DNA of 64,000 nt from Antedon mediterranea (Eukaryota > Echinodermata > Crinoidea > Comatulida > Antedonidae). The notes beneath the pieces were generated by a model that ran no database searches, was not told the DNA's origin, and saw only the letters and a list, made by a program, of their open reading frames with translations. The position numbers were made by a program, and so were the translations under genes. Below, piece by piece: positions 8,700-62,867 of this stretch (the stretch's first letter is position 1; the number at the start of each line of letters is the position of its first letter). Where the stretch lies: contig NC_092672.1 of the NCBI RefSeq assembly GCF_964355755.1, positions 29,508,501 to 29,572,500 on the forward strand, given 5' to 3'.

Positions 8700-9395
8700 T
8701 TGAAACGATTCAGAGAGTCCAGTTCAGGTGAGTTTTTTTGGTATTCAAAGAGTTTACAGTAGTTTTGAGAGAGTTGTTGATCTGGTTTTGAAATTATTGA
8801 TGTATTCAAGGAGTCTAGTTAAAGTAAGTTGTTGGTATTTAGATACTCCACTTTAAGGCAAGTTGTTTGTATTTAGAGAGTCTACAGTACTTTCGGGCAA
8901 GTTGTTGGTATTCAAACAGTCCACTTTAAGGCAAGTTGTTTGTATTTAGAGAGTCTACAGTACTTTCGGGCAAGTTGTTGGTATTCAAACAGTCCACTTT
9001 AAGGCAAGTTGTTTGTATTTAGAGAGTCTACAGTACTTTCGGGCAAGTTGTTGGTATTTAAACAGTCCACTTTAAAGCAAGTTGTTTGTATTTAGAGAGT
9101 CTACAGTACTTTCGGGCAAGTTGTTGGTATTTAGAGAGTCAACTTTCGGGTAAGTTGTTGGTATTAGAGAGTCCACTTTCGGGTAAATTGTTGGTATTTA
9201 GAGAGTCAACTTTCGGGTAAGTTGTTGGTATTTAGAGAGTCCACTTTCGGGTACTGTAAGTTGTAGGTATTTAGAGAGTCCACTTTAGGGCAAGTTGTTG
9301 GTACAGGTATTTAGAGAGTCCACTTTTGGGTAGTTGTTGGTATTTGGAGAGTCCACTTTAGGGCAAGTTGTTGGTATTTAAAGAGTGTACAGTAT
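8700..9395. repeat. Degenerate minisatellite, about 30-64 bp units
   Basis: Repeated units combine AGAGAGTC, a CCACTTTCGGG or CCACTTTAAGG word and CAAGTTGTTGGTATTT. In the first half the pattern alternates (GTTGTTTGTATTT then GTTGTTGGTATTC), giving a higher-order period near 64 bp. The second half simplifies to about 30-bp units. There is no ORF and no terminal structure, so it is a local tandem array. Confidence 0.85.
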
Positions 9396-9934
9396 GATCG
9401 AGTTTCTATTTCATTTAAAAACAACTACAGTAGTCAGATGTCCGTTACGCTGTATATGAACCATGAGTTAAGTTTACTGAACCTAAATCTCCACCCTTTG
9501 ACTAAAGATGTTTGTTTAGGATCCGTTCTTCACACCTCTAGAAGTACCCTCTATTCACAGCAATTTAATGTTTATTTACTGTCAATATTTAAAGCACGAT
9601 GTTCCAACATTGATTATTTGAAGTGTTAAAGACACCACACTATTAAACATTTTTTTAAAACATTGTTAAATTCATTTTTAAGGTATACCATTTAATAAGA
9701 TGGTATCACTGATTAAATAAAATAAGTCTTGATTTCAGTGGCTTTTACTGCTGTTAATCCCCGAATTGGGTCATCTTATTTATTCATATTTTTCTTTTTT
9801 TCCCCTGAATACAGTACGTTCTCATTTTCTGGCGAAGATGCTAAATATTATTATTAATTTAGTAGTTTGTAATTATATTTAAGCATATTTAATTTTTTTT
9901 CAACTATTCGAAGTACTGTACAGTATTTCATTCA

Positions 9935-10325
9935 ATAGATCTATTAAAGGGACACCTACACTTTGTTGGGTCCTGGAGTTGTCCCCTGATTAGATCTATT
10001 AAAGGGACACCTACACTTTGTTGGGTCCTGGAGGTGTCCCCTCAATAGATCTATTAAAGGGACACCTACACTTTGTTGGGTCCTGGAGGTGTCCCCTCAA
10101 TAGATCTATTAAAGGGACACCTATACTTTGTTGGGTCCTGGAGGTGTCCCTTCAATAGGTCTATTAAAGGGACACCTACACTTTGTTAGGTCCTGGAGGT
10201 GTCCCCTCAATAGATCTATTAAAGGGACACCTACACTTTGTTGGGTCCTGGAGGTGTCCCCTCAATAGATCTATTAATGGGACACCTACAATTTGTTGGG
10301 TCCTGGAGGTTTCCCTTCAATAGAG
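9935..10325. repeat. 55-bp minisatellite, about seven copies, hairpin-forming units
   Basis: AGATCTATTAAAGGGACACC recurs every 55 bp (9937, 9992, 10047 and onward). Each unit has GGGACACCTACAC facing GGAGGTGTCCC, so every repeat can fold into a stem with a TTTGTTGGGTCCT-like loop. Unit divergence is low except at both ends, which suggests recent homogenisation. Confidence 0.9.
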
Positions 10326-12040: not shown

Positions 12041-15000
12041 ATTTAGTAGCACAACAGCAGAGAGCAGTCGGCGGCTAATGGGAAAACGGACCAAGAGGAG
12101 GGTCAGGCCAAAAAGACGTCCACAGAAAAATATCCACAGGGTAAATATAAACTATTCCTTAATTTTAGTAATAATATTAATAATTAATAATAATAAAAAA
12201 TTCTTCTCTTTTCTTTTCTCTCTTTTTCAATCATAAACAGACTTAAATTAGTACTAGTGTTTAGTTTAGTACTGTAGGTTATTTGTGTGAAGGTAGGTTT
12301 AGTTTAGTTTTAGTATTAAGGTAGTTTAGTTTAGTAAAGTATTTAGTTTATTCATTTAGTGTTTAGTTAATAGTTTTTAGTATTTTTAATGTTTAATTTA
12401 ATTAGTATGTTTTCAGAACATCTCCTTTTTTTTTCATGTATCTTTGAGTTCGTTTACAAAAAGGACACGCGTCAACATTTTATTGTCTACTGCAATTTGT
12501 TCATTACGCCTCAAACGTTTTCTGCTGTTTTAAAACTATAACAATTTTGAAACAAAAATTATCACTGTATATCATATCATAATGTATCATAACTTAATAC
12601 TTAATTTTAGGTCGCTGAAAGTACATTATTAAAATTTATAGCCATTACAATGCTAACATAAATGTTATGTTGTAATGGTATGCGGTTGGAGTTAATAAAT
12701 CACATGATTCTGAACAAGAATTATCACATGTTGTAGTAATGTTTATAGTGTCGTTCCTATCTGAATGTCATACACGACAAGTATTTCAAATATACTGTTC
12801 GGTTATCCCTACATTTTGAACAGTATCCCTTCCAAATACAGTGTTTTAAAGACAAATACTCAAGAAGTGTGGTAAAGTCTTGGAATAGTCTTTAGAATAC
12901 TATTTAAGTGAAAGATTTTGATCTAGACTGATGTGATTGGACAGTATCTGAAGGCTAATTTGCATAGTTTTTATCTGAAAATCCAGGTGGTGTTATCTAT
13001 TGGTATTGTATCCAGGATCGAGAGTGAATTCTGGTTTCTGTAAAAATAGGTTTTATTTTATAGAATTCTTGATTGGAGGTAATTGTTCTAGACGGTGGTG
13101 GGCAGGACACCAATCTTCCTACCAGTGACTACCCTAGAAGCCTACAATAACATTTTGACTGATAGACTAGAAATAAATTATATTGTAATTAGTTTTATTA
13201 ATTTAAAAAAAACTTTATTTCATCTTTTTAATAATGTGAAGTCTCTCCTCCTCCTATTCTTCATTCATTCCAACTTTCATCCATTTTGAATCTTTCTTTG
13301 CCATCATTTGTTTTATTTGTGTGTATTGATCCTTTATTAATGTATCTTCATTCATTAATTTATTTTCTGTTTTTTCTACTCATCCATTTATTTACATTTC
13401 ATCCATTTATTTGTCCATCTCTCAATATTCATTCATTTTTCTACTCATTTATTTATTTACCTTTCATCTATTCATCCTCGATCTATCTGCAATCATTCTG
13501 CAATCATTCACCCATCCACTCACCTATAATGGACTCCATCCATCTTAGCTGCTTGTATTCTGCTGTAAGGAAGTCGCGGCTATAATAACTACACCGTGTT
13601 GTATTAGCAAGAGCTAGGCGGTATTAATAGCGCAATTTAATGTCGAAAACATGCATTAGTCGACTTTACTTGTCCACTAATATGTATCTTTATCATCCTC
13701 CCACAGGCATCATCGTTCAGTAGTATTACGGATTCTACGATGTCTCTAAATATCATTACGGTCACGTTAAATCTCGGTATGTATGTATGTTGGCTAAGTA
13801 AAACTAAAAATATTTTAGTACTCAACTGAACATTTGTGCTTTTTTATAGTAAATTTATTTTGTTGTAGATTTTTAAATAGTATTCAAGGTTTCAATGTTT
13901 TTGATGTAAAAATATTTTTGTCTGTGGATGTGCTTTCCAATACTTATAATGTCGGAATAATGTGTTTTTAACCAACTCCAAAAGACTTAAGAATCTTGTG
14001 TGATGTTTGTCCATAGAGATCACTATAATCTCTCTCCTAATTTCCAAATATTATAAAACAGTTATTCAAATTTGTATTGACAATTTTTAAACATTACAAC
14101 AAAATATTTATTGTAATATTTTTTTTCAATTTTTTCCCCAGATAAGATCAATTTTCTTGGTATCAGCATAGTTGGTCAGAGTAACAAGGGTGGAGATGGT
14201 GGAATATATGTAGGGTCTATAATGAAAGGGTAAGTACCAATAGACATCAAAAAGAAAAGTACAAATTGTTGCAAAGGATAAAGTACCAATAGACATCTTA
14301 GATAAAAATACCAATTGACTTAAAGCCTAAAAGTTTGAATAGTCATAAAAGATAAAGTGTACAACTATAGTTATAAAGTATAAAAGTATCAATAGTCATA
14401 GTAGGTAAAAGTGACAATAGTAAATGTACTCTTTTGAGACAACCTTTGCTTGTTTTTGTCAAATAAATGCCATTTTATACCCAGGAAGGCAAAATGTGTT
14501 GTCAAAAATTAGCATTCTTCTCCATTTTTTCTTTTAGTGGTGCAGTTGCTGCAGATGGGAAAATAGAACCAGGTGACATGATATTACAGGTAAGTATCAC
14601 AATGCAAATATTGCAAATATTGCCTATCCCTAATTATAGCTTGTTTTAGTGTAAGCAAAATATTTTTTGTTTTCTTCTTTCCTTTGTCTCCCTTAATGTT
14701 ATAATAAATAAAACCAAAACAGCATTCTACAGTAGTTTTTCCTACTACAGTATGGCACTATTTATATAGTAAATTATTCTAGGTCCGGGCAACAACCGGC
14801 GAAACATAGATTTACATAGTTTGGTCGTTGGAAATCAAACACTCCCTATGTAGTGTGCACTTGATTTCGTGTTGTGGTTCAAATCCATAATATGGCATCA
14901 ATGAAACATTTACTTTTTATACAAGAAATATGTATTTCTGTATAAATAATGCAGATTATGATTATGTGTGTGGTTTAACAATATTTTCTTAATAGGTAAA

Positions 15001-18000
15001 TGAAGTTAGTTTTGAAAATCTGAGTAACGATGATGCTGTACGCGTTTTACGAGAAACCGTGCATAAACCCGGGTAAGTGATTGCGCCATAAATTTACTAT
15101 TGCAAACATTATTTAAATTTTTCCCACAATCCTATATTCTTCACAGGTCAACGAACATAGCTTTGAAAATTTGAGTAATGACGATGCGGTACGAGTGTTA
15201 CGGGAAGCGGTCCAAAAACCTGGGTGAGTCGGCCAAAGCAGTCAACTGTGACATGGCCAAGTTGATGTCGGTCTGCTCGTATCTCCCCTTGATGTATAAT
15301 TTCTAACCATTTAATTTTTATTTTTGTTTTATTTTGTAAATGTTTTTGTTTCTTGTTGAAACTTGTTGACTGCTTTTTAAGGCTCAAGTCTCTAGGAGCT
15401 TGTTTCTGCTGCATAGCACAGAAAAGTGTTTATTTCTAAAATGTTTAGGACTACCGTATTTCTGCTAAATTTCTGCTCCCAAATAACCGTTAACCATCTT
15501 TTTTTTCAAACAATTGCTGAAAACCCATCTCTGTCGAATTGCATATGAAATGACGTAATTTCCACCTTGTTTCGATCGAGCCTTGTGGTCGTAGCGCTTT
15601 AGAGAAAATTTTATTTTCGTTAGGCACTATACAAAAGACAATTATTATTATTATTACCCAATATGCAATGCCATCATACTGCTACTGTTAATCTGATAAC
15701 CCGTATTTCGTGTTACAACTAAAAGTTGCACAGCGATAACACGTTAAATACCATTCTAACTCCCAAATTTTATGTTCACCATTTAACCGGTTTTTAAAAT
15801 TTTTTTTTTCTTTCTGCTACCAAGAAATTGAAGTTAAATTTATTTATACGGTTAATAATGGGTTATTTTTTCGCAGCAGAAACAGGACCTAGCAGTCAGC
15901 ATTTGTTGTAACAATAGTAATAACCATTTGTATTGTATTTTTTTTTTCAGTCAAAGCACATTTATCTTTTTTTGCACAACTGTTGTATTCAGCACATTAT
16001 TAATGCATTTCTGTTTTTAAAATAATGTTTTTAATTTTGTTGAATGTTAAGTTGTATATTAATAACCATACCTGTAATGTGTTATGTTAACCAATATTAT
16101 TTGTGTCATTGTTATTAACTGTACTTTATTTTGCTGATCGGAAAACTTTCTGTCGTTTTTGTGTCATCCGTGAAACGTATTTATTTTATATCAATTTTTT
16201 CAACAATAAATAACTTTGTAACCTCTTGCATTCAAAAGAAATTAATAGGTCTAATTCAGTTTTCTGTCTTTTATGGGAAAAAATACAAAAAGAGAGAAGA
16301 TAATAAAACTCAAATTAAATGTTCTTTTCACATTTTCACAAGAACAGTAAACATAAAGTGGTTTTACTGATGTTTGAGTTTGTATCATATTTAAATGTGC
16401 ATATGAAAATTATTTGCTTGTCCTAAATTAACTCAACTCTGATTAATGAAAGTTAAGATTAGGATGTACATTGTATACATTTAAAAGGATTAATTTTTTT
16501 AAATATCAGTTTTTTTTAATGGTTTTTTTTATCAGTAATGTGTCAAATGAGTGTGGATGGTGGTTGTGTTGCATTAAGTTTATTTTTTTTTAAGCATGAA
16601 AAATGTAATCAACATATTTGTCATTAATACTCTACCTTCTTTAATATCTTTCTTTTCTTTTCTAAACTGTTGTTCTTTTTGTCCGACAATTACAGTAATA
16701 CAATTAATAAATTGATGTTATAAATGTTACAGTATTTTATTTTGTTGAAAATCACAATTGTAATTGTATAAAACCACATTTTCATTGTCTTTTAGTTAAT
16801 TTGTAATACTAGACACTTTTGGGACCCAACAAAGTGTCCCATTTTTTATAACAGTCTCTCCTTAATAGGGTTGGCCGTAATGGGAAAGAGTTCACATAAT
16901 ACGGCGGTCTCTTAAAAGCTATCTACACCATCAAATTAGAATGACAAAAAAGGGTGATGTGGCCAAATATGGTAGTGATATGACATCATGTCCATATATG
17001 GGCACATCACATTTTTTGTTGTCACATAAAGTTGGATAGTGTAGACAGAGCTTTAAGTAGGGGTTCTACTGTAGCTAAGTATGAGTGACATATGTTTATA
17101 ATGATCTAGTCTTATGTTAATCCTGATGTAATTATGAAAATGATTTCTACTTCTTATTTAGACCTATACGACTCGTTGTAGCTAAGTGTTGGGACCCTAC
17201 ACCAAAGGGTTACTTTACAATACCAAGAAGTAAGTATAAGAATTTTGTTGGCGGGATTTGTTTAAATAAAAATAAATAAAATATAATAATAATAATAAGA
17301 CCGGCACAGGAACCTAATCGCAATTAAATAGGCACAGGTTCAACCATAGTTCTTGTGGTAGAAGTTTTCTCGGACAAGGACTCAAAACGAGGTAAAATTC
17401 ATCATTAGAATTTTTGTGAAAAATTTTATCTAATTGCATTTTTAAACTATATAAATTACACCCATTATTTTCTTTTACTTTTACTGTAGGTGAACCGGTA
17501 CGGCCAATAGATCCCGGTGCGTGGGTGGCACATACAAATGCCATGAAAGGTAAGCTATTGAGTTAGGCTAAGCTAACTGATGAGAGCTAGGCTAAGCTAG
17601 CCGATGAGAGTTAAGCTAAGTCAACTGGTGAGAGCTAAGCTTAGCTAGTTAGCTAGGCTAATCTAGCCATTGGTCTAGGCTATGCTAGCTGATAAGAGCT
17701 TGGCTAAGCTAGCAAGTGAGAGCTAGGTTAAGCTAGCCGATGAGAGCTAAGCTAAGCCAACTGGTGAGAGCTAAGCTAGTTAGTTAGCTAGGCTAATCTA
17801 GCCATTGATTTAGGCTATGCAACTGGTGAGAGCAAAGCTAGCTGGTGAGAGCTAGGCTAAGCCAACTGGTGAGAGCAAAGCTAGCTGGTGAGCTAGGCTA
17901 AAACACAAAACTATTTCTAAAAGTAGATGCAACAAAATGAGATGTAGATTTACACATTTACTATTATTTCATATTACTGTGTTCCTTACAATTTTTTTCT

Positions 18001-21000
18001 TACTATGTATTTCAGAATATGCAGCTGCAGCTTCAAGAGGGGGTCCTATCAGTCCCTCAATGACCTCCATGACCTCTGCTACTTCTTCAATTACTAGCTC
18101 CATTCCAGAGTCAGATCGTAAGTGACATTTTTTTATGCATCTAATTACAATTTTCACACCCTGATATGATATATCTATTAGTGTTAAAGAAATCCTGATT
18201 TATTATTATCTATTACAGATGTTTTTCAATAAATTATGACTTAATATTAACAGGGCACCTAAATTGATTTGTGATTTCATTATTTATGACAAAAATAATT
18301 GGTTATGGTTAGTTCCTTATAAGCTGGAAGAAATGTCAATAGGAAATTTATGAAGTGATCTTTTGATCTACCTAGTATGTGCATTGTTTATAGGACATGT
18401 TAACACATTTTATTGATGATAAAATTAATACATTTAAACATAGAAAAGGTTATTGGGTTCATTGAGATCAAATGTATTTTAACATGTTTATCAATTTATA
18501 TTTGTTGTTGTGCAAAAAGGTATGCAACTTTATTGAACAATTTTAAATACACTAATCAGAATAATTTTGAAAATACAGATGTCAGATTGTATGAACATTT
18601 TTTAAAGTTATTTTTTTTTTTTTTTAAGTTAGATTGAAATAAATTGAAATTGTTATTTTTCCCAAACATAGCATACAAAAAATGGGTTCTGATTTATTCA
18701 GTCTTGCTAAAAATAAGTCTGGTATTCAGAGAGTGTTATTAATGTGAGAAAAAGAATGTTGGACCTTTTGGACCTAAAAAAATCTCTAGTTTTCCCATTT
18801 TTATAGAGCACGTCTGTATTTATTTATACTACCTTGTGTGTGTGTTACTAATAACAATTTTTTTTTCATTTTTGTTTAAAGTTTGTTTTTCAAAAGGCTA
18901 CAACGATATCGGACCATTAACTATCAACACACCGATGCTGTCCATAGTACGTGCAATGGCTGCGCCAGATTCGGGCTTAGATATCCGAGATCGTATGTGG
19001 TTGAAAATCAAGATACCAAGTGCATTTATAGGTTAGTATTATTAATTAATGTTTTTGAGTGCAATGGTGCAAATAATTTTGTAAAGTTTATTAAAAAGCT
19101 TAATATGACATATTTCATCTTTCGCCAATGTAAATTTAAAATGTTCATTATTTGTTTTATAACACACCTACTGTAAATTATTTCAACGAAAAAACATATT
19201 CCTAGGCTTAGAAAGCCTCAATAAAGTGTTACCAAAAAAGAATAGGAGTAGAAAATGAAACTTAACTAAATCAAAAATATTTAACATTCATTAGATAGTT
19301 AATAAGTTTGCTCCTATGGAATTTATATCTTAATTTTTCTATTGATAGGCCTCCTGAACTAAAAATCTGTTTGGCTTTTTTATATTTTTTTATTTAGAAA
19401 GTATTTTTATGTTTTACTATGTGCATTGTCTTTTGGAGACTCGGCCCTAAAGCTCTTTTTGGTTTTTTTGAGATTCCACATAAACAATGATTTTTTCCTT
19501 TACTTTATGTGGAACAATAAAATGAGTGAATGAAATCATGAAGAATTCATAGTTAATTAGTCACCTTTTTTGATTCACAGGTTCCGATGTCGTAGAATGG
19601 TTGTTTAACCATGTAGAAGGGTTCCAAGACAGGAGGGACGCACGTAAATACGCCACCAATATGCTAAAGATGAATTATATAAAACACACAGTTAACAAGA
19701 TTACATTCTCAGAACAGTGTTATTACGTTTTTGGTGATTTATGCTCAAGTAAGTATAATTTGATTTGATTTCGATATTATTTATACCAAATTGAAATTAA
19801 TATGTAGAGGATAGGGTCTTGGTTGTGATTCCCATTTGAGAATTTGTTTTCTTGTCCAGCTCATATTTTTACCCATTAATGATTGCTAATAAGATGAACG
19901 CGAGTCCTGTGTTCATTTTGTACTAAGCCTCGGCGTTATGTGGAAGGGTGGCCAATTACTTTCCACGCTGCCTTGTCCTCCCTAGCAAGTTCACCTAGGT
20001 ACTCGCTTACAGAGCGGACAGTGGGTCTTTCTGTATGATAGTCAAAATGCCCTAACCACTCTGCTACTAATCACTAAATAAATAAGGTAATCTGTTTAGA
20101 TCTATTGATTAGACCACCATTGTTCATGTTTCAATATTGTTTGACAAAATAAAGTAGACGTATATATAATATATAATTTAGGACAAAAAACATATATTTA
20201 AATATAATATTGCATTCTCTTGTAGATATGGCAGCACTATCATTAGGTGACGAGCACTCGGAAGCTGACCAAGATGTGCTTGCCCCCTTGCCTGGCGCAC
20301 CACCCCACTGGGTACCCATGGCACCCGCACCTCCTCTCCCCTACCCAGCATCTCAAATGAGTTATAACAGCCAGCCACCTTGCTATCAACAAGTTGCCGG
20401 CGGTTACGCATCATTCGACACGGCCAGTTATACAAGTTTTGGCAATGGCAGTATAGGCAGTGCTGGAAGTGGAGGTAAAGATGAATCTTTTGTTTCTACC
20501 ATAAAATGATTCTCCTGCAGTTACTGCAGTAACGACATTTTGTTTACTCTTTACCTTTACCTGAAATTATTATTTAGTCATCTTTTTTTATGATACACAG
20601 TGTTTATTGTAGTGATTGCCTCAAACTAAAATCATACATTATTGCAAGTAATATTAATTAATTATCATTAAGTCATCTTTTTTTATGATACACAGTGTCT
20701 ATTGTAGTGATTGCCTCAAACTAAAAGTAATATAAATTAATAATTGTTAATTGCAGTATATAATTTTAACATGATCCCTTGATAAACCTACCATATTTTG
20801 CCCTTTCAAACACGGTTGAAGGCAACATGAGTATTAAAAACAAATGGAAGATCCGCAGTTGAACATAGTGACTTCACACAATTCACCGCCTAATAAAGGC
20901 ACACTATTGTTGTGTAGATGCTTTAGTATATTGGACACTGGCTACAATAATCATATGTGAATACTTAATTTAGACATGTTGCTTAGTTAATACTATTAGT

Positions 21001-21426
21001 ATTAGTTAGCTTAGTTTATACAAAAAAGGTAGATGATGAGTTGAATTATTTTTTCTATTCTATTTAGTATTTCTCAATTACAATAAGATTGAAATTATTT
21101 TCTCTCCATGTTTGATTTCGTAAGATAACTTTCTGAACTGTTTTATTTTAAACTTTTTAGGAAGCAGCGGTTCAGGAAAGAGCCAAGAGAAGAGTAAATC
21201 TCACAGCAAAGGCAGCGAGAGTGGAAGTGAGTCAGACTTAACCATCAACGCAAGCCGTCCCGGAAGCATGCAAGGTGGAATGCAAGGCGAGAACATCCCA
21301 GTACAAGTACCCGTTCCACCGTTACCGCGACAGCTAGGTCAAATGCCAGCCGATCTATCAGGCAGTAGGCAGTCCTTCCGTATGGCTATGGGAAATCCAT
21401 GCGAGTTCTTCGTAGATGTAATGTGA
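12041..21426 (+). CDS. dvl: Dishevelled (Dvl/Dsh), Wnt signalling scaffold; 5' end missing
   Basis: Dishevelled is the cytoplasmic scaffold linking Frizzled receptors to beta-catenin and planar polarity outputs. Exons I can place, with phases that agree: 12041-12140, 13707-13776, 14142-14229, 14538-14589, 14996-15072 or 15147-15223, 17162-17229, 17490-17549, 18016-18117, 18897-19031, 19581-19748, 20226-20474, 21161-21426. They encode about 477 residues. In order these are the basic region ([14 protein letters not shown]), a PDZ domain ([11 protein letters not shown] to [13 protein letters not shown]), a Ser/Thr-rich linker, a DEP domain ([20 protein letters not shown] to CYYVFGDL), a Pro/Ser-rich tail, and the family-typical end [10 protein letters not shown]. 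Full-length family members are roughly 650-740 residues, so the DIX domain and acidic linker exons are absent here. All splice sites listed are GT-AG. The gene appears intact. Confidence 0.95.
12141..13706 (+). other. Dishevelled intron, nothing coding
   Basis: GT-AG intron of about 1.57 kb. It holds AT-rich sequence and, from about 13250 to 13510, a low-complexity stretch rich in CATT and CATTT words. That stretch produces a spurious 99-codon ORF. Nothing else is recognised. Confidence 0.8.
14996..15072 (+). other. dvl: Dishevelled PDZ alternative exon a (77 bp)
   Basis: The exon is flanked by AATAG at the acceptor and GTAAGT at the donor. It enters in phase 0 after CAG and leaves in phase 2. 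It encodes [20 protein letters not shown] followed by TVHKPG, the part of PDZ that covers the loop and helix alpha-B beside the peptide groove. Joining it to the next constitutive exon at 17162 gives the expected KPG-P-I-R order. A second exon of the same length and phase follows after only 74 bp. Confidence 0.92.
15147..15223 (+). other. dvl: Dishevelled PDZ alternative exon b (77 bp), duplicate of exon a
   Basis: It is flanked by a pyrimidine-rich TTCTTCACAG acceptor and a GTGAGT donor, with the same phases as exon a. It encodes [20 protein letters not shown] followed by AVQKPG. Against exon a there are 17 nucleotide differences in 77, affecting 15 codons, of which only three change the residue (V to H, T to A, H to Q). 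Synonymous change dominates, so both copies have been kept under protein-level constraint. Using both exons together shifts the frame and meets TGA inside exon b. Using neither meets TAG in the next exon. Confidence 0.9.
15545..15657 (+). repeat. SINE-like fragment with (ATT)n tail
   Basis: The string GTAGCGCTTTAGAGAAAA, then CGTTAGGCACTATACAAAAG and an ATTATTATTATTATT tail resembles the 3' end of tRNA-derived SINEs common in invertebrates. No tRNA-like head with A and B boxes is visible, so only a 3' fragment is claimed. Confidence 0.4.
16916..17052. mobile_element. MITE of family B, flanked by TTAA
   Basis: AAGCTATCTACACC at the left is matched by GTGTAGACAGAGCT at the right, and both sides are flanked by TTAA (16912-16915 and 17053-17056). 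The 137-bp interior contains TATGGTAGTGATATGACATC, shared with 45827-46000. The TTAA target suggests mobilisation by a piggyBac- or Kolobok-type transposase. That assignment is inference from the target site only. Confidence 0.7.
17305..17400. repeat. SINE-like fragment related to 43730-43860
   Basis: AACCATAGTTCTTGTGGTAG, then AAGTTTTCTCGGACAAGGAC and TCAAAACGAGG resemble the segment around 43740-43790 (GGTGGAACAAGTCTCCTCGG, then ATAAGGACTATAAACCG). It is a short decayed copy within a Dishevelled intron. Confidence 0.35.
17550..17905. repeat. Intronic tandem repeat of GCTAGGCTAAGCTAG-type units
   Basis: Units of roughly 28 bp built from GAGAGCTAGGCTAAGCTAGC and CAACTGGTGAGAGC repeat about a dozen times in the intron after 17549. 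A higher-order block containing GTTAGCTAGGCTAATCTAGC occurs twice. Units are rich in CTAG-type palindromes. No coding potential was seen. Confidence 0.85.
18118..18896 (+). other. Dishevelled intron, nothing recognised
   Basis: AT-rich GT-AG intron. The acceptor I use is the AAAAG just before GCTACAACG, because it keeps the frame and gives [14 protein letters not shown], which fits the family. An alternative AG about 15 bases upstream would add five residues. Confidence 0.7.
19032..19580 (+). other. Dishevelled intron within the DEP domain, nothing recognised
   Basis: AT-rich intron splitting the DEP-coding sequence between ...SAFI and GSDVVEWL. No repeat or conserved element was recognised. 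Confidence 0.75.
19749..20225 (+). other. Dishevelled intron carrying a tRNA-like SINE
   Basis: The intron separates the DEP domain from the proline-rich tail. The middle (about 19850-20070) is more GC-rich and contains the SINE-like sequence listed separately. The rest is AT-rich with no signal. Confidence 0.7.
19850..20070 (-). repeat. Probable tRNA-derived SINE
   Basis: Read on the minus strand it begins TAGTAGCAGAGTGGTTAGGG, which fits a polymerase III A-box, followed by a less clear B-box region and a GC-richer body unlike the intron around it. The B-box match is poor, so the copy is old or the reading is wrong. Confidence 0.4.
20572..20735. repeat. Local duplication of about 60 bp in an intron
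   Basis: AGTCATCTTTTTTTATGATA, then CACAGTGT, T or C, and ATTGTAGTGATTGCC occurs twice about 95 bp apart with almost no divergence. This is a recent tandem duplication within the last Dishevelled intron. Confidence 0.85.
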
Positions 21427-27849: not shown

Positions 27850-30764
27850 ATGGACAGCACGATAAATGTGAATTTGGTAAGTACCTGTACATTGTGTTTT
27901 TTTAGATTGTACTTCCGTCATAAACATGTTAGGCTTACTCAAATTTGTACGGCGGGGGTCAATTCCCCCTCCCCACAGCGTGCGTATCGATGGGAGATTA
28001 TCTGATATTACAGTCTCCTGATGTAAATGCTGAACGTGAGTTCCGTCAACACCTTTAAATAAACCACATTACCATCTGATTCGTACATATTGTACAGTAC
28101 CACCATCTACCATAACCAGAACCACCAATCTGTATAATCACTATCATGTTTATGGTATAGTTATTTCCATTTTTTCCGAAGTCACAATTCTAATTTTCAT
28201 CAGCAGTTCCATGAGGCATTTTACTGTCCATGATTGTCCATTATAATTATCATATCATACCATAATCATTATCATCATCATCATCATTGTTGTCGTCATC
28301 ATCATTATCATCATCATTATCGTGATCGTCATTATCAGCAGCAGCATAACATCATAGTTATCATCGGCAGCAGCATTGCATCATCATCATTATCATCATC
28401 GTATCATCATCCTCATCGTATCATCATCGTCATCATATCATCATTGTATCATCATCACCATAACATCATCATATCATCATCGTATCATCATCATCACCAT
28501 CATTATCATCACCATCACTAACTGCTGCATCCCCACCATTGGCAGACAATGAGAGCACTCTCACACTTCAAAAGACAAAGCCTGAGACACCTAATCATCG
28601 TAGTCACATTAGGCCTATTCACCATCGTCTATCAGAACGCCTAATGAGAAACATTCGGGACAATGCGTTCCCTTTATAGGGGTGTCCCCTGATAGGGGTC
28701 GTGGAATATTAAAACATGTTTATTGTCGTGTATTTCAATTCACGAGGGAAGGTGGCTTCTTAATAAGGTGTCCCAAAGGAGGAGTTCTACTTCTAACCTA
28801 ACCCTAGCCCTATTTATTTTTGATACTTGAACTTCAGTGACATCATTAGCGTCTAAATGTTTGTAATCAATTAACCAAACGAATTATCAATTGTTTTCTT
28901 TTAGAATAGGAGCAAATCGATGAGCCCTGGGAGGACAAAGGATGCGTCTTCTACATCACTCGTCAACAATCTATCGCCTAGGCGTGGACGTAGGAAAAAA
29001 ATATCTATGAAAGAAATTAATTTATCCCCAAGAAGACGACCTTCCCGCCGAACGCCCGGGACAAACCATGTAATGGACGACCTGAACAGACTTCGTCTGG
29101 ACGGACATTACTGTGACGTCACTCTTATTGCAGACGGTAAACGACATCTCGCGCATAAGAATATTTTAGTGGCGAGTAGTCCGTATTTTAAAGAGTTGTT
29201 TGAAGCCAAAGGTAACCAAGACAAGTCGGAATTTAGGTTGATTGGTGTCCGCAGCTCAGCATTGTCTGTTGTTCTTGGTGTTGTGTACACTTCCAGTCTG
29301 AATGCTTCCGATGTTAGCGAACTTGACGACTTGCGGGAAACGCTTCGAACTGCGTACACTTTACGTATAGAAGTAGTTAATGTCGTCTGCGGGAAGTTTA
29401 TGATCGCGCGTTTGAAGTGTAAGAATTGTGTAGATTATTTTTTGCTCACAAAAGAGTTCCACATGGACGATATCAGGAATGAGGTTGTTGAGTATATTGC
29501 CAAGAGTTTTGGTGAAGTCATTGATAGTAATCTCCATTTAAATCTGTCTTGCCAACAGATAATTCACTTTTTAAGTAGAGATGATCTATCGGCAAAGTCT
29601 GAGATTTCGATTTTTGAAGCTGTTATGGAATGGTTACGAAGCGATTGGCAAGACCGAAAAGACTACGCCCCTCTTATTATGACCCACATTCGTTTTCCTT
29701 TGATACATCCCAATGACATCGTAAACAAAGTCCAAGTTGAGGAAGCTTTAATGGACATACCAGAGTGTCGAACATTGATTACAGAGGCAATGTCATACCA
29801 TTTGTTACCACACCATCAGCATTCCTTCCAAACTCTAACACGTGCAACAACGGACGTATTTGTTGTCTTAGGTGGTGAGGATATGCAAGGGTTAACCAGT
29901 GAACAAACATACGTATGTGATATTGAGACAAACGTCTGGAAACCGTTCACAGACATGCCAATTCGAAGACTCGATTTAGCTGTGGCCACCATGGATAATT
30001 TCTTGTACGTAGCTGGTGGCCAGTTCTCTGGTGATTCCTTAGGCATTGACAGCATTGGCACGGTTCACCAGTATAATCCACGGTTTGATACATGGCGTCA
30101 ACTCTGTCCTATGAAAAAGAGACGCTCGCTTTTCTCTTTAGATGGAATGAATACGTATCTGTATGCAGTTGGTGGGAAGAATACTCAAGGAGGATTGGCA
30201 AGCGTTGAAAGGTATGACAGTGGCACGGACTCTTGGGAGTACGTCGCACCTCTGACGCTTCACACATTTGGGCATAGCAGCGCAGTTGTAGGCGGTAAAC
30301 TTTTCATCACCGGCGGAGTCGTTGACGGTGGACATTTCAGCAATGCATTACAAGTTTACGATCCAAACCATGATAAATGGACGTTTAAAGCGCCAATGTC
30401 TTCGACAAGAGCCTTCCATGTCATGTGTTCCGTGGGTAAGAAAATATACGTCATAGGCGGCAACACGCGGGATAGTAAAAATCGACGAGTTGATTGTCGC
30501 GCTGTTGAATGTTACGATACAAAAAATGAACAGTGGTCGACGTTAGCGCGTATGCCGATTGGGGTTAGTTTAGCAGGTGTGTGCGTTTATAGCAAATGCG
30601 TGTACGTTATTGGCGGATATACTGGCAAGTTTTCTGACAGACATTCTGAGGTTCAAAAGTATGATATTGAAACCGACAAATGGAAAATTGTTTGTAATTT
30701 ACCAGAGTGCGTAATCAGACACAGGTGTTGTATACTATCTGTACCACAATCACGCTTACTTTGA
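27850..30764 (+). CDS. BTB-BACK-Kelch protein (KLHL family)
   Basis: The family usually acts as substrate adaptors of Cullin-3 ubiquitin ligases. The main exon holds an ORF of 614 residues counted from ATG 28920: a basic Ser/Arg/Pro-rich N-terminus (1-50), BTB (about 55-160, HYCDVTLIADGKRHLAHKNI), BACK (about 165-290) and six kelch repeats with LGG, AGG, VGG, TGG, IGG and IGG at about 317, 366, 418, 465, 513 and 565. A splice acceptor (TTCTTTTAG) precedes 28905. A short upstream exon, 27850-27876, starts with ATG and ends at GTAAGT. Splicing it to 28905 keeps one frame and adds MDSTINVNLNRSKS before the methionine at 28920. That first exon is inferred. If it is wrong, translation starts at 28920. 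The exact paralogue is not identified. Confidence 0.88.
27877..28904 (+). other. Probable first intron of the Kelch gene, with (ATC)n microsatellite
   Basis: It runs from GTAAGTACC to TTCTTTTAG. It includes an ATC/CAT-rich simple repeat (about 28225-28525) and, near 28672-28696, GGGGTGTCCCCTGATAGGGG, a word resembling those in the 55-bp minisatellite. The 95-codon His-rich ORF in the microsatellite is spurious. Confidence 0.6.
28225..28525. repeat. (ATC/CAT)n microsatellite
   Basis: Long imperfect run of CAT and ATC triplets with a few CAGCAGCA interruptions. Confidence 0.9.
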
Positions 30765-39634: not shown

Positions 39635-41470
39635 TAAGAAGGGCCCGAATGTGAAAGATGGCTTAAGATGTGAAGGACTAAAATCAGATAGACCCCAAGT
39701 AGTTATAGATAGTGTAGAAAATAAAATGGAGAAGTGTACAATACCAGGAAAATTAGAAGGACAGGATATAACTATGCTTAGAGACTCGGGATGTACCCAG
39801 TCAGCTGTTAAGGAAAGTCTAGTGCCTAACAAATGTTACTTGCCAGGAAAATGGGTTACGTTAAGAGGTATAGGAGGCGATAATTACCGTCCCCTTAGCT
39901 GAGGTAGCTATAGAAAGTAAGATAGTGACAGGAAAAGTGATTGTAGCCGTAATCGAAGGATTACAGAGGGACATGTTATTGGGTCATGATTTGGACCAGA
40001 ATTGTGGGGAAACAATGGCTAAAGAAATGTTCGTCCTAACTAGGGAGCAAGCCAGAATAGAAAATGATGTTAGAATACAAGACGAAATGATATTGTTAGG
40101 GAAAGATAGTAACTTTAAGCCGATAGAAGAGCCGCCTAAAGAAACTAATGTACAATTGTTGAAAACAGTAGTAAATGACAACAAAGTAAATAAAACTAAG
40201 TGTTTAGATGATATGAATGGAACAGAAATGAATAATTTGTTTGACAAAAATGAGGATAAAGCTAAAGATAAAACAGTCAAACATAAAACTTATGAACAAC
40301 AGCACAAGCTGAACCTAACTAAACAAGAACTGATCAAATTGCAAACTAAGGATGACTCACTCAAAGGAGTGTTTGACAGGGTAGTCCCTATAGAAGAAAT
40401 AGGTCAGCATAGGGTATGTTTCTTTATGAGACAAGGTATATTGATGAGAAATTGGAGTAGTATTAAAGATAAGAATAACCAAGTGGAACAGATTGTATTA
40501 CCCACTCAGTGTAGACAGGGTGTATTACACTTAGGTCATAATGTGCCATTTGCAGGTCACATGGGTGTTGAGAAAACTAAAAGTAGGATCCTGAACCAAT
40601 TCTATTGGCCAGGTATATTTAAAGATGTGGTAGTCTATTGTAAAGTCTGTAAGGAATGCCAAAAGGTAGATAAGGGTAAAAGTAAAAGGAAACATACTTT
40701 GATACCATTACCGATTATAAGTACACCATTTAAACGTATAGCGATAGATATTGTTGGACCCTTATCTAGAACAAGCCGTAATAACAAATATATGCTTACT
40801 ATAATTGACTATGCTACGAGATATCCGGATGCTATCCCGTTACCCAATGTTAGAGCTGAAACAGTAGCCAGGGCTCTAATAGAAGTCTTTACTAGAGTAG
40901 GATTACCCGAAGAGATTGTACATGATCAAGGAACTAATTTCATGTCTTCAATTATGCAATCTATATGTAGTATGTTGGGGATTAATCAATTAAAGACTAC
41001 AGTGTACCACCCCCAAAGCAATGGGCTTGTTGAAAGATTTCACGGTACATTGAAAAATATGATAAGGACACTTACAGTTAAGCAAAGAAAAAATTGGGAT
41101 AACTACATACCTCCCTTTCTGTTTGCATACAGAGAAGTTCCTAGTAAAGCGACGGGCCATTCACCTTTTAAATTGCTTTATGGTAGAGAGGTGAGGGGAC
41201 CCTTGAGTTTACTCAAAAGTAATTGGGTAGAAGATGAAGAAACATCTACTGATGTTATCAAATACATGTTAGACATAAGAGAAAAAATGGAGGAATTAAT
41301 GAAAGATGCTAATGTAAACAAACTTGAACAACAAGAAATTATGTCCCACAATTATAACAAGAATGCTATTGATAGAGAATTTGTAGAAGGGGACAAAGTG
41401 TTGATATTCCTTCCAGTAGGAAATAGTAAGTTAGACAGTAAATGGCAAGGCCCCTTCACTGTTACAAAAT
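39635..41470 (+). pseudogene. pol: Protease and integrase of the Gmr1-like element, frame-broken
   Basis: The protease part has the aspartic active site as DITMLRDSGCTQSAV (about 39767-39811) and shifts frame near 39885, before the LLGHDLD motif. Integrase follows: an HHCC zinc module (LGHNVPFAGHMGVEKTKSRI to YCKVCKEC), then the catalytic core with Asp in RIAIDIVGPLS, Asp in EEIVHDQGTNF and Glu in SNGLVERFHGTLKN. The C-terminal region ends at GPFTVTK, where the 216-bp repeat interrupts. Placing integrase before reverse transcriptase is the defining oddity. Apart from the protease frameshift and the end, the integrase frame is long and open (39925-41472). Confidence 0.9.
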
Positions 41471-41686
41471 AACGAGTCGTCGGAAGATGGACCATTTCAC
41501 GAATTTCCTATTTTGTAACCACAGTGTGATTTTGCCGTAGCTGCACTTGTAATCTGGCCTGATTTCACAGCCTTCGTTCTGCTTCACTGGGCGCTTATAT
41601 AAATTGAAACTTTTACCGTTCAAGAGACAAACAAATATATTTTACATTTTTTACTATTCATTTTAAACCCGGAACCCCCCTTTAAA
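41471..41686 (+). repeat. 216-bp interspersed repeat (family C), copy 2, inside the retrotransposon
   Basis: Matches 6356-6572 end to end at about 96 percent by eye. It lies precisely between the integrase and reverse transcriptase coding blocks. AAAT-like sequence on both sides could be a short target duplication, but the ends are ambiguous. It introduces a stop at once after the integrase frame. Confidence 0.8.
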
Positions 41687-43138
41687 TGAAACAGTCCATG
41701 ACAATGAGTTAGATAGTGAAATAGACATAGGATTGTCTTATCATCAATCACAAACATGGAGAGATGTTAACGTTAGTAGTAATTTAAATGATACACAAAC
41801 TAAACAATTAACAGAATTGTTAAAGTACCAACAGAATGTATTCTCGGATGTACCAGGTAGAACTCACTTAGTGACACATGAAATTAAGACTAATGGTGAA
41901 ATGCCTATAAGGCATAGGGCATATAGAACGCCCCAAGCATTAAAGGGTAAATTGAAAGAAGAATTAGATAGTATGTTGGCTATGGGTATAATAGAACCTA
42001 CAGTTAGTGCCTATGCTGCACCTATTATTGCCCTGAAGAAAGGCCAGAATCAAATTAGAATGGTGACAGATTTTAGATCACTAAATAAGACTACACAATT
42101 TGACCCTTATGTTATGCCTCGCATAGACGAAATGTTGGATGAGGTATCATCCGCAATATACATAACTACGTTAGATCTAACTAAAGGATTTTACCAGGTG
42201 CCTCTGGATCCTAAGACCAAAGACAAATCAGCATTTATTACACAATTTGGACAGTATTGTTACAATGTACTTCCATTTGGTATGCAAAATAGCTCTAGTA
42301 CTTTCCAAAGATTAATGGATAAGGTATTACAAGGTACTGAGGGATATGCTAAGGCATATATAGATGACATATGTATTTATAGTCAAACTGGGAAAGATCA
42401 TATTTTTCATTTGAATGATGTATTAGAAAGATTAAGTAGTGCTGGATTGACAGCAAAGCCTTTGAAATGTAAAATTGCCTATGCACAGGTAGAATTTCTG
42501 GGGCATAAGATTGGTAATGGAGAAATTAGACCCAAGATTGATAAGGTTGAGGCTGTGGAAAAGTTCCCCAGACCTTTGTCTAAGAAACAAGTCCGATCAT
42601 TTCTCGGATTAACGGGCTATTACAGAAAATTTGTACAGAACTATGCCGATATTGCTAAGCCATTGATTGATTTAACTTTAAAGAGTAAAAGTAATACCGT
42701 TAAGTGGAATGAACAATGTGAAAATGCCTTTGTAACTTTAAAGAAACGACTTACTGATGATAATGTATTAAAAGCCCCAAATTTTGATAAGATGTTTATA
42801 TTGCAAACCGATGCCTCAAATTATGGCATAGGTGCAGTGCTGAGCCAAATAGATGGTGAGGGAAATGATTATATCATTGTGTACATGAGCAAAGATATTC
42901 TGTGCCAGAAAAAGAGTGCCTCTCTATTGTTTGGGCTATCAATAAACTTAAGTATTATCTGTATGGTTGTGAATTTCAAGTTCATACTGACCACCAGGCA
43001 TTGAGATGGATGGACTCAATGAAGGGTGCCAATGTTAGACTTATGAGATGGGCTCTGTTTTTACAAGGATATAAATTTAAAGTTATTTACAAGAAAGGAT
43101 CATTAAATGGAAATGCAGATGGATTAAGCCGTGTATAA
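41687..43138 (+). pseudogene. pol: Reverse transcriptase and RNase H of the Gmr1-like element
   Basis: The frame is open from about 41687. RT motifs are in order: RMVTDFRSLNKTT, ITTLDLTKGFYQVPL, AFITQFGQYCYNVLPFGMQN, then the catalytic AYIDDICIYS and FLGHKIGNGEI. The connection and RNase H domains follow (ILQTDASNYGIGAVLSQ). The frame breaks near 42900, and RNase H finishes in another frame (EKECLSIVWAINKLKYYLYG, then HTDHQALRWM) to the stop at 43138. No integrase follows, which confirms the unusual domain order. The single-base shift suggests loss of function or an assembly error. Confidence 0.92.
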
Positions 43139-46929: not shown

Positions 46930-49030
46930 GCAATGTGCAATACGTATTGTACAAGAATGGATAAAATGCTTGATCTTGTTATTTGTAGTAAAAACATTTC
47001 CGACAAAGTCTATACTGCTAACGATATTTTTTTATCTGACCACTCATCTTTGAGAATTGATTTCCGTTTAAATTTTTATGTTAATTGTAGTAATGATAAT
47101 TTGAATCGTAAAAGTATAATTTACAATTTTAAAGCACTTGATGTCAATAATCTATGTAATACTCTTAACTGTGTTCCATGGAGTGTCTTAATTGATTTTG
47201 AAGGTGATTTAAATGAAGCTTTGGATATGTTTTATAATTTGTTAAATGCTGCCGTCAATGACACAGTGCCTAAAATTAGAAAGCGCAGAAAGCTTCCTCC
47301 GTGGTTTGACAATGAGTTGAGAAGTGCGCTTCAACACAAAGAAAAGTATTATAGATATCTGAAAAAAAATAATAATCGGTTAGCCCAAAGTAATTTCAAA
47401 TTTGCTCGCGCGTCTTTTAAAAAAATGTGCAATAAAAAGTACAAAGATTACTTGGACTCTTTGGCTAAGCAAATTGTCACTAACAGTAAAAGATTCTGGA
47501 GCTGGATAAAAACTAAATACAAGTCAAATAATCTTCCTTCTGTCATGAGTCACGATAACATTTCATTCCAGTCTAATTATGATAAAGCTACCACATTTAA
47601 TTCTTATTTTCATTCTTTTTTCAGTGAGCCTTCTCCGGACGTTCCCCGGGACTATCCAGGTCTTCCTGACTATGCGGTGGATAACTTGAGTTCTCTGTCT
47701 GTGAATCAGCATTCTGTGGAAAAGGCACTTAGTAACCTTGATATCAATAAATAATCTGTAACTATCGTCCTATTTCGTTATTGCCTACTATGTCTAAGAT
47801 TTTTGAGCGCATTGTGCATTATGGTTTGTCATCACATGTTGCTAATGCTTTAAGTCCTAGGCAGCATGGTTTTGTCTCTGGGAGATCATGTCAAACCAAC
47901 CTCGCACTGCTTCTTGCTACATCATACGATGCAATTAACAGCAAGAAGCAGTGCGATGTGATTTACACTGATTTCTCTAAGGCTTTTGATTCCGTTTCCC
48001 ATGATTTGCTTATTTTTAAACTTTCAAAATTTGGTTTATCCGGTTTACTTTTAAGTTGGTTTAAAAGCTATTTAACTAATAGACAACAGCGTGTTGTCAT
48101 TGGGGGAGAGACATCTGATTGGCTCCCTGTGTTATCGGGCGTTCCGCAGGGCTCGATCCTGGGCCCGCTTTTGTTTAATTTATTTATCAACGATCTTCTT
48201 TTAAAATTTAATCATTCCGAGTCTCTTTTATTTGCTGACGATCTGAAATTGTTTAAAGTGATTACCACTCCACAGGATGCTTTTTCACTTCAGGAGGATC
48301 TGGATGGTCTCGTGGAATGGACGGAGAAGTGGGGGATAAAACTTAATGCTAATAAATGCAAATATTTATCTATAACACTTAAAAAAGGCCTGTGCTCTTC
48401 AATTATAATCTGAATGGACATGATCTTGAGATGGTTTATGTATGGAAAGATTTAGGTATTTTTATTGATAGTAAATTAAATTTTTTTTCACATATTAATC
48501 ATGTGTTGTCAAAAGCTAATAGAATGATGGGCTTAATATGGAGAAATTGTAGGTTTATGAACGACGGCAGGGCACTTTTATCTTTATACAAATCTATTAT
48601 ACGTCCTCACCTTGAATATTGTTCCGTAATTTTCAATTCAATTTCTCCATGTCAGGCCCGTCGAATCGACACTGTTCAACGGAAGTTTGTTCGATTCCTG
48701 TCTTATAACTGTGTTAATTTTGCCTTTTCCATTGATTCTGTCAGCAATCGTCGAACGATATCTGATATGGTTTTTTTATATAATATTTTAAATTCTAAAT
48801 ATGACTGTTCATTAATTTCACTATTTAGTTTAAATGTTCCTGGTCGTACACGAAATAGACATTTTTTGCATATTCCTTTTAGCCGTGTCGACTGTACTAA
48901 GAGGGGACTTTTTCATAGACTACCTTATACATTTAATAATCTAAATAGCAATCATATCGATATTTTTAATGATAGACTTGGTTATTTTAAGAGGACGATT
49001 ATGTGTTCACTTCTTGAACAGCCTGCATAA
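46930..49030 (+). pseudogene. Endonuclease remnant and reverse transcriptase of the non-LTR element
   Basis: Block 1 (46933-47754) holds the end of the endonuclease and the pre-RT linker, and stops after ALSNLDINK. Block 2 (47781-48413) resumes at NYRPISLLPTMSKIF. The expected stretch of about 50-60 residues between these motifs (normally GPDGI... to ...HKKG) is gone, so there is an internal deletion. RT motifs follow: YTDFSKAFDSVSHDLL, GVPQGSILGPLLFNLFINDL and the catalytic LLFADDLKLF. A frameshift near 48395 leads to block 3 (48392-49030), the C-terminal domain with RRIDTVQRKFVRFLSYN. The copy is dead by truncation, deletion and frameshift. Confidence 0.88.
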
Positions 49031-61249: not shown

Positions 61250-62867
61250 CTTTTGTCGGAAATATTCATTTTGTATTTTTTTATATATTTGGATTATTTG
61301 AATCATAAGCTTTGCAATGGTGTTTATTTCATAAAAATTGAGTAAATATTTAAAAAGTTATTATATTTTAAAAACTTACAAATCATTCAATTAGTTTACG
61401 AGAAAATCGCGTTTGAAGTTTGCAATGAAATTCTTTTTGATACGCGCTGAAAACTCACTCCGTAGCAACGCGCTATGTTGGTCTAAGGCACAATGACGTC
61501 ATACCAGGAAGTGTGTGCGATATAGCAGCAGCGTGGAAACTATGGTCAATTTGACTGATTTCAGACGCCGTTTTAACCTATTTAGTCACTCGAATTAACT
61601 ATTTTGCACTATTGAAAAGCAGCATTATAACTACCAAGCTAATGTTAACTGGTTTCGGAAGTGTTTACGATATCAACGGCAAAAAACCAAGCAGGCCTAG
61701 GCCTAGCTAGGCGCGCCTATTCAGATTTTCGCCGTCATCGCCTGTATTAAGACCTACTGATGATGGGTGTTCATCAGGCCGTGTATGGCAGCGGTGCGTC
61801 GACACGGGGGCTAGCGTTAGTCTAGACAAGTTAGGCGCCTTGCAGAGTCACAGCTAATTGCAAGCTAACATTACACTGTATTGGCGATTACATTTGTTTT
61901 TTTTTATAACGTGGAAGATTCGCTGTGGTGTTTGGGCTTGAATCCAATGATTTAAAAAAACATTTAATATGAAAGGAATGGACAATAAATTAAATAAATA
62001 ATTAAGAGCCGATTGGATATATAAAATGTATAAATAAAACTATTGACAATAATATAAAGCTAGGCCCAGTAGTAGTAGGCCTACAACCATAATAAAATTA
62101 GGCCTAGGGCCTACTAGCCCAAAAAAATATAGAAAATACAATTGAATTTATGACGTGAATTGTTTTTGACTTGTCTATTTTACTATGGAATAAACAAATA
62201 CACACTACAGCTATTGCAGAACACTTTACTTTGAATATTAAAATCGTTTTTATTCCAATTTACGACATGCTGTGTGTACAATAAAAATAACCTCACAAAA
62301 ATGTCAACAACTTTTTATTTCCGCGCGTAGAGCGTATAACATCTAGCGCGTTGACCAATAACGTTTGTTATTGCGATGATGCGCCATAGCAACACACGCA
62401 GTTCGCTGTTCCAGAAACTTCGAAGAACCGAATTTTCTGAAATGATGTCATAGTAAATCAAAGTTTTCATTGGTTCCTTCTTTAAACTCCGCCCTAAAAC
62501 TTCCATATTTGGAATGTCAAATGGATGAGCTTTATTTTGATGTGTGACCTTTCAACATTGTGCAGCGAACTGGCGATCAAAATGTTGTAAAACTCGGCAA
62601 CTTTCAACTGAATTTACGCAAAATTTTAGCGTAGATCGTGAATAAATTGTTAGGCTTGAGGAAAATACATGTTTTTAAAACTCTCTTTTTTCATAATTTT
62701 AGTTAAATTTCGGGAGTTTAAATCAGGTAGACGTATTCTTAGATAGTGAAATATTTCGAAAATGCAAAAACATGTAATCTGCCAGGGTAGTCGATTTGGA
62801 CGTATTTTGACTGATTACGTGAATTTTGAATTGCCGACAAAGAGAGGGTTTTGCCAGATCGGGTCAC
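61250..62867. other. Body of the outer non-autonomous transposon
   Basis: No ORF of recognisable content. The region is AT-rich with a GC-richer patch at 61680-61860 containing CAGGCCTAGGCCTAGCTAGG. It ends in the terminal inverted repeat with GTTTTGCCAGATCGGGTCAC. Confidence 0.6.

Follow-up and report, generated by a model that had tools for sequence, protein, structure and literature searches.

Mutually exclusive tandem duplicated exons, as described in human genes (PMC5740500, PMC9741552), are adjacent, homologous copies of equal length and phase that are frame-incompatible if joined, lie in a folded domain, differ by few residues and are ancient. In 60% of the human exclusive-exon clusters the lengths are not multiples of three, and in 9% a steric clash is possible, the donor lying less than 50 nt from the branch point (PMC5740500). 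In U2AF1, the duplicated alternative exons 3 and Ab likewise lead to two isoforms of one protein, with a regulation that was studied experimentally (PMC5224494). RS-exons under exon-junction-complex control, which start with a partial donor completed by the preceding exon and are then skipped or included, constitute another related system; in animals from sea urchin to human, annotated RS-exons reach roughly twice their frequency in Drosophila, although no more than a few percent of the exons in human belong to this type (PMC6224609).

Here we describe two tandem exons, a and b, within the PDZ part of the single Dishevelled gene found in the genome of the feather star Antedon mediterranea. Dishevelled is a central relay of Wnt signalling. 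It routes Wnt signals into different branches, a choice in which its PDZ domain takes part (PMC4577825). Exons a and b share with the human sets all the features listed above, but they differ at just 3 of 25 residues, and, unlike the U2AF1 exons, which belong to a different gene, they are known from sequence, from which their exclusivity is predicted. Mutually exclusive exons are of a known kind, and the literature searched describes none for Dishevelled (neither PMC5740500 nor PMC9741552 mentions DVL in its main text), which makes this pair a new case.

The window analysed is a stretch of 64,000 nucleotides of contig NC_092672.1, and all positions below refer to its forward strand. The NCBI protein DVL-3-like isoform X4 of Antedon mediterranea (P0005) matches the exons of the gene, with 671 of 675 residues placed exactly and the remaining 4 corresponding to split codons. 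Its identity as Dishevelled, judged by the presence of DIX, the Dishevelled-specific region, PDZ, DEP and Dsh_C together in a single protein, is supported by matches to PF00778, PF02377, PF00595, PF00610 and PF12316, all above cut-off. Searches of the animal's own genome returned five DIX places, two of them in the Dishevelled gene on contig 3, and eight PDZ places, five of them in this gene. Near the remaining DIX places, on contigs 1 and 8, the Dvl-type PDZ query gave no match, and these places are taken to be other DIX genes rather than a second Dvl gene.

According to the P0005 model, an exon encoding the basic region before the PDZ domain (12041-12140) is followed by the PDZ start (13707-13776) and by the exon carrying the FLGISIVGQ strand (14142-14229). 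The upstream constant PDZ exon, e0, ends in GDMILQ and is an exact P0005 match with GT-AG borders (14538-14589); it is separated by a 406-nt intron (14590-14995) from exon a (14996-15072), itself separated by a 74-nt spacer (15073-15146) from exon b (15147-15223). A 1,938-nt intron (15224-17161) leads to the downstream constant PDZ exon, e3 (17162-17229). The model then continues with an exon after the PDZ domain (17490-17549), the PDZ-DEP linker (18016-18117), the DEP start (18882-19031) and end (19581-19748), the C-terminal region (20226-20474) and the last coding exon, terminating in FVDVM and a stop (21161-21426).

Analysis of the two exons confirmed the original observation of a 77-nt pair with entry phase 0, exit phase 2 and GT-AG borders, each copy encoding 25 residues and leaving two bases (GG). 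The acceptors read TTAATAG for exon a and TTCACAG for exon b, and the donors GTAAGT and GTGAGT, respectively. The copies are thus adjacent, homologous, of equal length and in the same frame, with intact splice sites and no in-frame stop, the anatomy of a mutually exclusive cluster. They are identical at 60 of 77 bases and, in tblastn, at 23 of 26 residues. Over the 25 full codons, 10 are identical, 12 differ silently and three change the residue, as had been announced: V/H at codon 4, T/A at codon 21 and H/Q at codon 23. No direct repeat of the 4.1-kb region searched is longer than the one formed by the pair (97 nt, 78%), which occurs once in the whole assembly at the DNA level. Identity drops less upstream of the exons than beyond their donors, amounting to 80% over the last 10 intron bases and, in the 20-nt blocks before them, to 40% and 55% (29 of 56 overall). 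Within the 74.5-kb gene region, tblastn (E<=0.001) revealed no further copy of the a/b exon, and among the 15 of 18 Dvl coding exons that gave matches (the other three being short or of low complexity) a second place was found for this one only. An Rfam search at gathering thresholds gave no match.

Only the inclusion of one of the two exons leads to a full protein, as originally proposed. Joining a and b in order creates a TGA inside exon b (15172-15174), whereas skipping both reaches a stop in e3; this stop is a TAA (17183-17185) and not the TAG that had been given, the sole factual error found in the earlier claims. All 17 introns of the P0005 model, at 260-13,311 nt, are far longer than the spacer. 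Taking a distance from donor to branch point of under 50 nt as the steric criterion, the two best branch-point-like candidates predicted in the spacer lie at distances of 23 and 43 nt, and a lesser one at 53 nt. Because of this spacer and of the incompatible frames, one-of-two splicing is the likeliest use of the pair. A docking/selector RNA mechanism gained no support, for one species and one method: 13 of 30 and 18 of 30 shuffles did as well as or better than the pairings between the introns of a and b. Pairing of the e0-a intron with the b-e3 intron (-32.9) was lower than in all 10 shuffles (lowest -32.7) and would skip both exons.

Splice sites were scored with our own position weight matrix, built on the 17 sites of the P0005 model, rather than with MaxEntScan. 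The acceptor of exon a scored 1.1, below all 17 acceptors of the model (1.6-14.0), while its donor scored 12.8, above all 17 donors (1.5-12.5). As the acceptor of exon a is the weakest yet the donor of exon b is only middling (7.0), the default choice is not settled by site strength alone.

Taken together, these data argue, with a probability of about 0.8, that a single PDZ exon of crinoid Dishevelled was duplicated in tandem long ago and that its two copies are subject to one-of-two splicing. Either exon would fill the same PDZ stretch, comprising the short strand preceding helix alpha-B and then alpha-B itself. Exclusivity would be ensured mainly by the 77-nt length, which puts double inclusion and double skipping out of frame, and by the spacer, probably too short for direct splicing of a to b. 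Exon b, with its better 3' site and as the annotated form, is probably the default. The combination of a weak 3' site and a strong 5' site suggests that exon a probably depends on a regulator that activates it in certain tissues or stages. The anatomy, the frames, the trace left by selection on either copy and an annotated model containing exon b are observed; from them we infer the use of exon a, its regulator and an effect on binding.

To evaluate whether both copies are old and selected as protein, a comparison of a and b was performed with NG86, which gave 13 differences over 16.2 synonymous sites (saturated) versus 4 over 58.8 nonsynonymous sites. In 20,000 simulations, 17 unconstrained differences changed a mean of 10.7 residues, and three or fewer in a fraction of 5e-5. 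When one copy was fully constrained and the other left free up to 13 third-position differences, the mean rose to 15.3 changed residues, a stop arose in the free copy in 56% of runs, and three or fewer changes with an open frame were obtained in 1 of 4,000 simulations; a weaker simulation that gave the free copy just 4 to 9 raw changes did not decide the matter. The synonymous saturation, the kept protein and the 1 in 4,000 result support the proposal that both copies have probably been under selection as protein for long.

These results bear directly on the hypothesis that exon a is a remnant, silent or rarely spliced, with exon b alone in use. The three crinoid models seen carry only b-type exons and the acceptor of exon a is weaker than all 17 of the P0005 model, both in favour of a remnant, but a free copy at the observed synonymous distance should have accumulated the changes and stops simulated above. 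Instead, exon a has an open frame, a 5' site outscoring the 17 others and, as its closest relative among 204 proteins, a lamprey segment differing by one residue, so that we consider a remnant unlikely. The two copies could also reflect two haplotypes assembled side by side. Beyond the general risk of such errors, nothing was found in favour of this explanation. The synonymous sites are saturated, which is not allelic, the 20-nt blocks following the donors share no more than 5-20% of their bases, and no other Dvl exon with a tblastn match is doubled. An assembly or allele artefact is therefore close to refuted. Control by a poison exon, in which the inclusion of both a and b would target the Dvl mRNA for decay and so reduce its amount, is compatible with a TGA located upstream of many junctions. 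However, such control requires no kept protein sequence, whereas between the copies the protein is kept and the DNA is not, and splicing of a to b is probably hindered by the 74-nt spacer, making this possibility very unlikely.

The one-of-two reading also has a variant involving a recursive-splicing switch. In this variant, e0 would first be joined to exon a, whose first bases (GTAAAT, 14996-15001) would rebuild a donor-like site, CAG/GTAAAT, at the upstream junction. The rebuilt site would compete with the donor of exon a, which would either be kept or be expelled with the spacer, e0 then being joined to exon b. This anatomy is that of the RS-exons (PMC6224609), except that skipping exon a would deliver a homologous replacement exon. 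The rebuilt site scored 10.0, above 12 of the 17 P0005-model donors, versus 3.5 for the exon b equivalent. Nevertheless, Val-Asn codons force GTNAAY at the start of any exon beginning with VN, and the likeness may be a by-product; moreover, the own donor of exon a is stronger, the 3.5 of exon b still equals the second weakest real donor, and the matrix is based on 17 sites. On balance, we regard this speculative switch as improbable.

Regarding the PDZ fold, the structure model of P0005, based on a 30-row alignment, is poor over this domain (mean pLDDT 50.6; 61-69 around the exon), and only the helix 307-319 and the short strand 300-301 were used from it. The V/H difference would fall where the short strand begins, and T/A and H/Q in the last turn of alpha-B, leaving the ligand-binding core intact in both proteins; with this core kept and three residues differing, the exchange would tune rather than switch PDZ binding. 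Alignment to human DVL3 places codon 4 at Ile305, codon 21 at Ile322 and codon 23 at His324. In one crystal complex, His324 makes a weak hydrogen bond to the groove ligand in one of two copies, and it is unused in another (PMC10539800). The suggestion that the variable residues adjoin the peptide groove is thus supported in part, for codon 23 of the three. The C-terminus of Dvl, proposed as a PDZ ligand, can indeed bind the PDZ domain (PMC4577825). In vertebrates, the PDZ of DVL1, DVL2 and DVL3 varies at the same places as a and b, but between separate genes and not alternative exons. For codon 4, the alignments give Ile in DVL3 but Met in DVL2; DVL1 presumably has Val at codon 4 and Ser at codon 23, in agreement with one compared segment.

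The pair itself was seen in one species, Antedon mediterranea, its relatives being known as protein models. Exon b is present in isoform X4 (P0005), and a b-type exon in isoforms X6 and X7 of Anneissia japonica (P0008, P0006), these crinoid models being gene predictions. No protein or transcript with exon a appeared among the matches listed in three protein searches (best 120 of 2,315, 120 of 968 and 120 of 124). As the database was clustered at 90%, with P0005 representing 11 sequences, an a-isoform could hide inside a cluster. Of 324 proteins, seven were dropped for want of a matching segment, and the other 317 yielded 319 segments; among these, His at codon 4 is confined to P0005, P0006 and P0008, whereas exon a has the common Val.

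In the hemichordate Saccoglossus kowalevskii, precisely the corresponding exon of a Dvl sequence departs from that of Glandiceps, at 7 of 26 residues, and the flanks at 0 of 100. Of the ambulacrarian segments compared, this divergent exon comes closest to the b type of crinoids. A divergence so confined hints at a wider ambulacrarian PDZ switch. It is possible, if doubtful, that such a switch was inherited from the echinoderm-hemichordate ancestor (or invented twice), with recursive splicing keeping a or replacing it with b. If true, one Wnt hub gene would give two PDZ versions, as vertebrates have on separate genes. Spliced from a single gene, they would provide a natural three-residue swap for testing what the PDZ decides, and the a and b forms would serve as markers of their respective sites of use during the development of crinoids and the regrowth of their arms.

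Two proteins in which PDZ segments are doubled, from shrimp and catfish (P0001, P0002), were considered as parallels and rejected, since by eye a long stretch is repeated, suggesting an error in the gene model or the assembly. The outlier score of P0020 in the segment comparison corresponds to a one-residue flank shift, which also makes the flank counts of P0006 and P0008 too high.

The Dishevelled gene lies on the forward strand, with its 3′ part in the window and its first coding exon, encoding the DIX domain, 49 kb upstream of it. The NCBI model of the Antedon protein (P0005, segment polarity protein dishevelled homolog DVL-3-like isoform X4, 675 aa), with the Pfam domains DIX, Dishevelled, PDZ, DEP and Dsh_C, was placed residue by residue on the gene region. 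Exact placement on open stretches was obtained for 671 of the 675 residues, the other four being split codons, in a model of 18 coding exons and 17 GT-AG introns. The window thus derives from this feather star or from a source that cannot be told apart from it by this gene. No second Dvl gene was seen among the own-genome matches to DIX (five places, two within the Dishevelled gene) and to a Dvl PDZ query (eight places, five in the gene and the remaining three at 34-41% identity). The 13.3-kb Dvl intron ending at 12040 holds two tandem arrays, at 8826-9394 (73-nt unit, 7.9 copies) and 9932-10324 (55-nt unit, 7.1 copies, 94% matches).

Two tandem PDZ exons on the forward strand, a (14996-15072) and b (15147-15223), are both 77 nt long, have entry phase 0 and end two bases into a codon. 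They have 60 of 77 bases in common. Comparison of their 25 full codons revealed 10 identical codons, 12 silent differences and three residue changes (a/b: V/H at codon 4, T/A at codon 21 and H/Q at codon 23), reproducing the lengths, phases and codon differences of the original prediction. Identity is 5-20% per 20-nt block 3′ of the two donor sites; 5′ of the acceptors it is 80% across 10 bases, and next 40% and 55%. Between the constant PDZ exons e0 (14538-14589) and e3 (17162-17229), both e0-a-e3 and e0-b-e3 are open, and joining a to b brings the frame to a TGA inside b, so that a full reading is obtained with one copy only, as had been proposed. The stop reached when both are skipped is a TAA in e3, not the predicted TAG. 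The P0005 model contains exon b.

The claim that both copies are old and selected as protein is supported by the NG86 comparison, which gave 13 synonymous differences over 16.2 sites and 4 nonsynonymous differences over 58.8 sites; the case rests on this saturation of the synonymous sites. Seventeen differences placed at random produced a mean of 10.7 residue changes, with three or fewer at a frequency of 5e-5 (20,000 runs). We also simulated a dead copy, with one exon fully constrained and the other free, stopping at the observed 13 differing third positions. The free copy averaged 15.3 changed residues, 56% of the runs produced a stop codon, and 1 of 4,000 combined an open frame with at most three changes; given the window base composition and fixed transition bias of 4 used, these figures are to be read as orders of magnitude only. 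A weaker earlier simulation, in which only 4 to 9 raw substitutions were put in the free copy, gave this outcome in 71% of runs at 4 substitutions, 29% at 6, 9% at 8 and 5% at 9.

The spacer between a and b measures 74 nt, versus 260 to 13,311 nt for the 17 introns of the P0005 model. Measured from the donor, its best branch-point-like candidates are at 23 and 43 nt and a lesser one is at 53 nt; the steric criterion for mutually exclusive exons in PMC5740500 is a donor-to-branch-point distance under 50. With a scoring matrix built from the gene's own splice sites, the exon a acceptor scored 1.1 (17 model acceptors, 1.6-14.0) and its donor 12.8 (17 model donors, 1.5-12.5), while exon b scored 6.3 and 7.0, respectively. 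From these scores, b looks like the default choice and a the regulated one, in agreement with the annotation. No docking-selector RNA pairing was found for the two exons. A pairing between the two outer introns (-32.9) fell just below the lowest of 10 shuffles (-32.7) and, if formed over this long range, would take out both exons. The e0-a junction rebuilds a donor-like CAG|GTAAAT from the end of e0 and positions 14996-15001, with a score of 10.0 compared to 3.5 for e0-b, and shares the layout of an exon under recursive splicing (RS-exon) as described in PMC6224609. Recursive splicing could be considered as no more than a testable variant for the choice between a and b.

Codons 4, 21 and 23 align with Ile305, Ile322 and His324 of DVL3. 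In the DVL3 PDZ crystals of PMC10539800, a groove ligand bonds the alpha-B residue Arg320 and, weakly, His324 in one of two complexes, and His324 is unused in a further structure. The proposed proximity of the variable residues to the peptide groove is partly supported, by this weak bond at codon 23. Since both forms have Arg320 (codon 19) and the His324 contact is weak or absent, binding would more likely be modestly tuned than altered in its specificity. The Antedon gene ends in FVDVM, and the suggestion that the C-terminus acts as an intramolecular PDZ ligand agrees with the reported ability of the Dvl C-terminus to occupy the PDZ pocket (PMC4577825).

To compare exon types across animals, residue 4 was tallied in 319 segments from 317 of the 324 proteins of three protein searches, the seven proteins lacking a matching segment being dropped. 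It is I in 188, V in 104, T in 19, M in 4, L in 1 and H in 3, the last being crinoid models only (P0005 and the Anneissia japonica models P0006 and P0008). Exon a encodes an ordinary Dvl segment, one change away from that of lamprey. Outside crinoids, A at residue 21 and Q at residue 23 occur frequently, unlike H at residue 4. Because Anneissia shares all three residues that set Antedon b apart from a, the b character seems older than the split of the two genera. On the simplest reading the duplication itself would also predate it, and Anneissia would have, or have had, an exon a. No exon-a protein was present among the matches listed (best 120 of 2,315, 120 of 968 and 120 of 124), where each database representative stands in for a cluster at 90% identity and one row may cover an unlisted isoform. 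The shrimp (P0001) and catfish (P0002) Dvl database proteins, in which a long stretch that spans the PDZ is repeated, are likely model or assembly errors.

When each segment was set against the 60 residues upstream and 40 residues downstream of it, in the 198 of 204 proteins with segment and flanks, the top outlier was a Saccoglossus kowalevskii protein (P0022, NCBI 'dishevelled, dsh homolog'), probably a cDNA sequence as its record is only 6.2 kb. It differs from Glandiceps talaboti at 7 of 26 segment residues and 0 of 100 flanking ones (Fisher p 7.8e-6, uncorrected and picked by scanning 198 proteins), and from Ptychodera at 8 of 26 and 1 of 100. Among 14 other ambulacrarian proteins, the fewest differences from its segment (5) are in the Anneissia b type, and of its 26 positions 20 agree with Antedon b as against 18 with a. 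As the divergence starts and stops at the exon borders, the hemichordate sequence P0022 may contain an alternative copy of the exon, although rapid evolution of one exon alone would give the same pattern.

Titles and abstract beginnings in the open-licence literature on Dishevelled splicing and exon duplication, and on mutually exclusive exons and PDZ domains, described no such pair; DVL was likewise absent from the main text of two human studies on mutually exclusive or tandem duplicated exons (PMC5740500, PMC9741552).

Downstream of Dvl, a KLHL-type gene (28905-30764, forward strand) consists of one long open reading frame encoding BTB, BACK and Kelch repeats. On the reverse strand, domain matches identified a leucine-rich-repeat frame (52317-53798) and a NACHT frame (62739-63356), perhaps NLR-type immune genes. 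A separate reverse transcriptase frame at 47751-48413 (forward strand) probably belongs to a LINE-type element. In the retroelement frames at 39874-43004 (forward strand), reverse transcriptase and RNase H (41667-43004) are preceded by integrase domains (39874-41472); this order is unusual for Ty3-type elements and is known from Gmr1-like elements.
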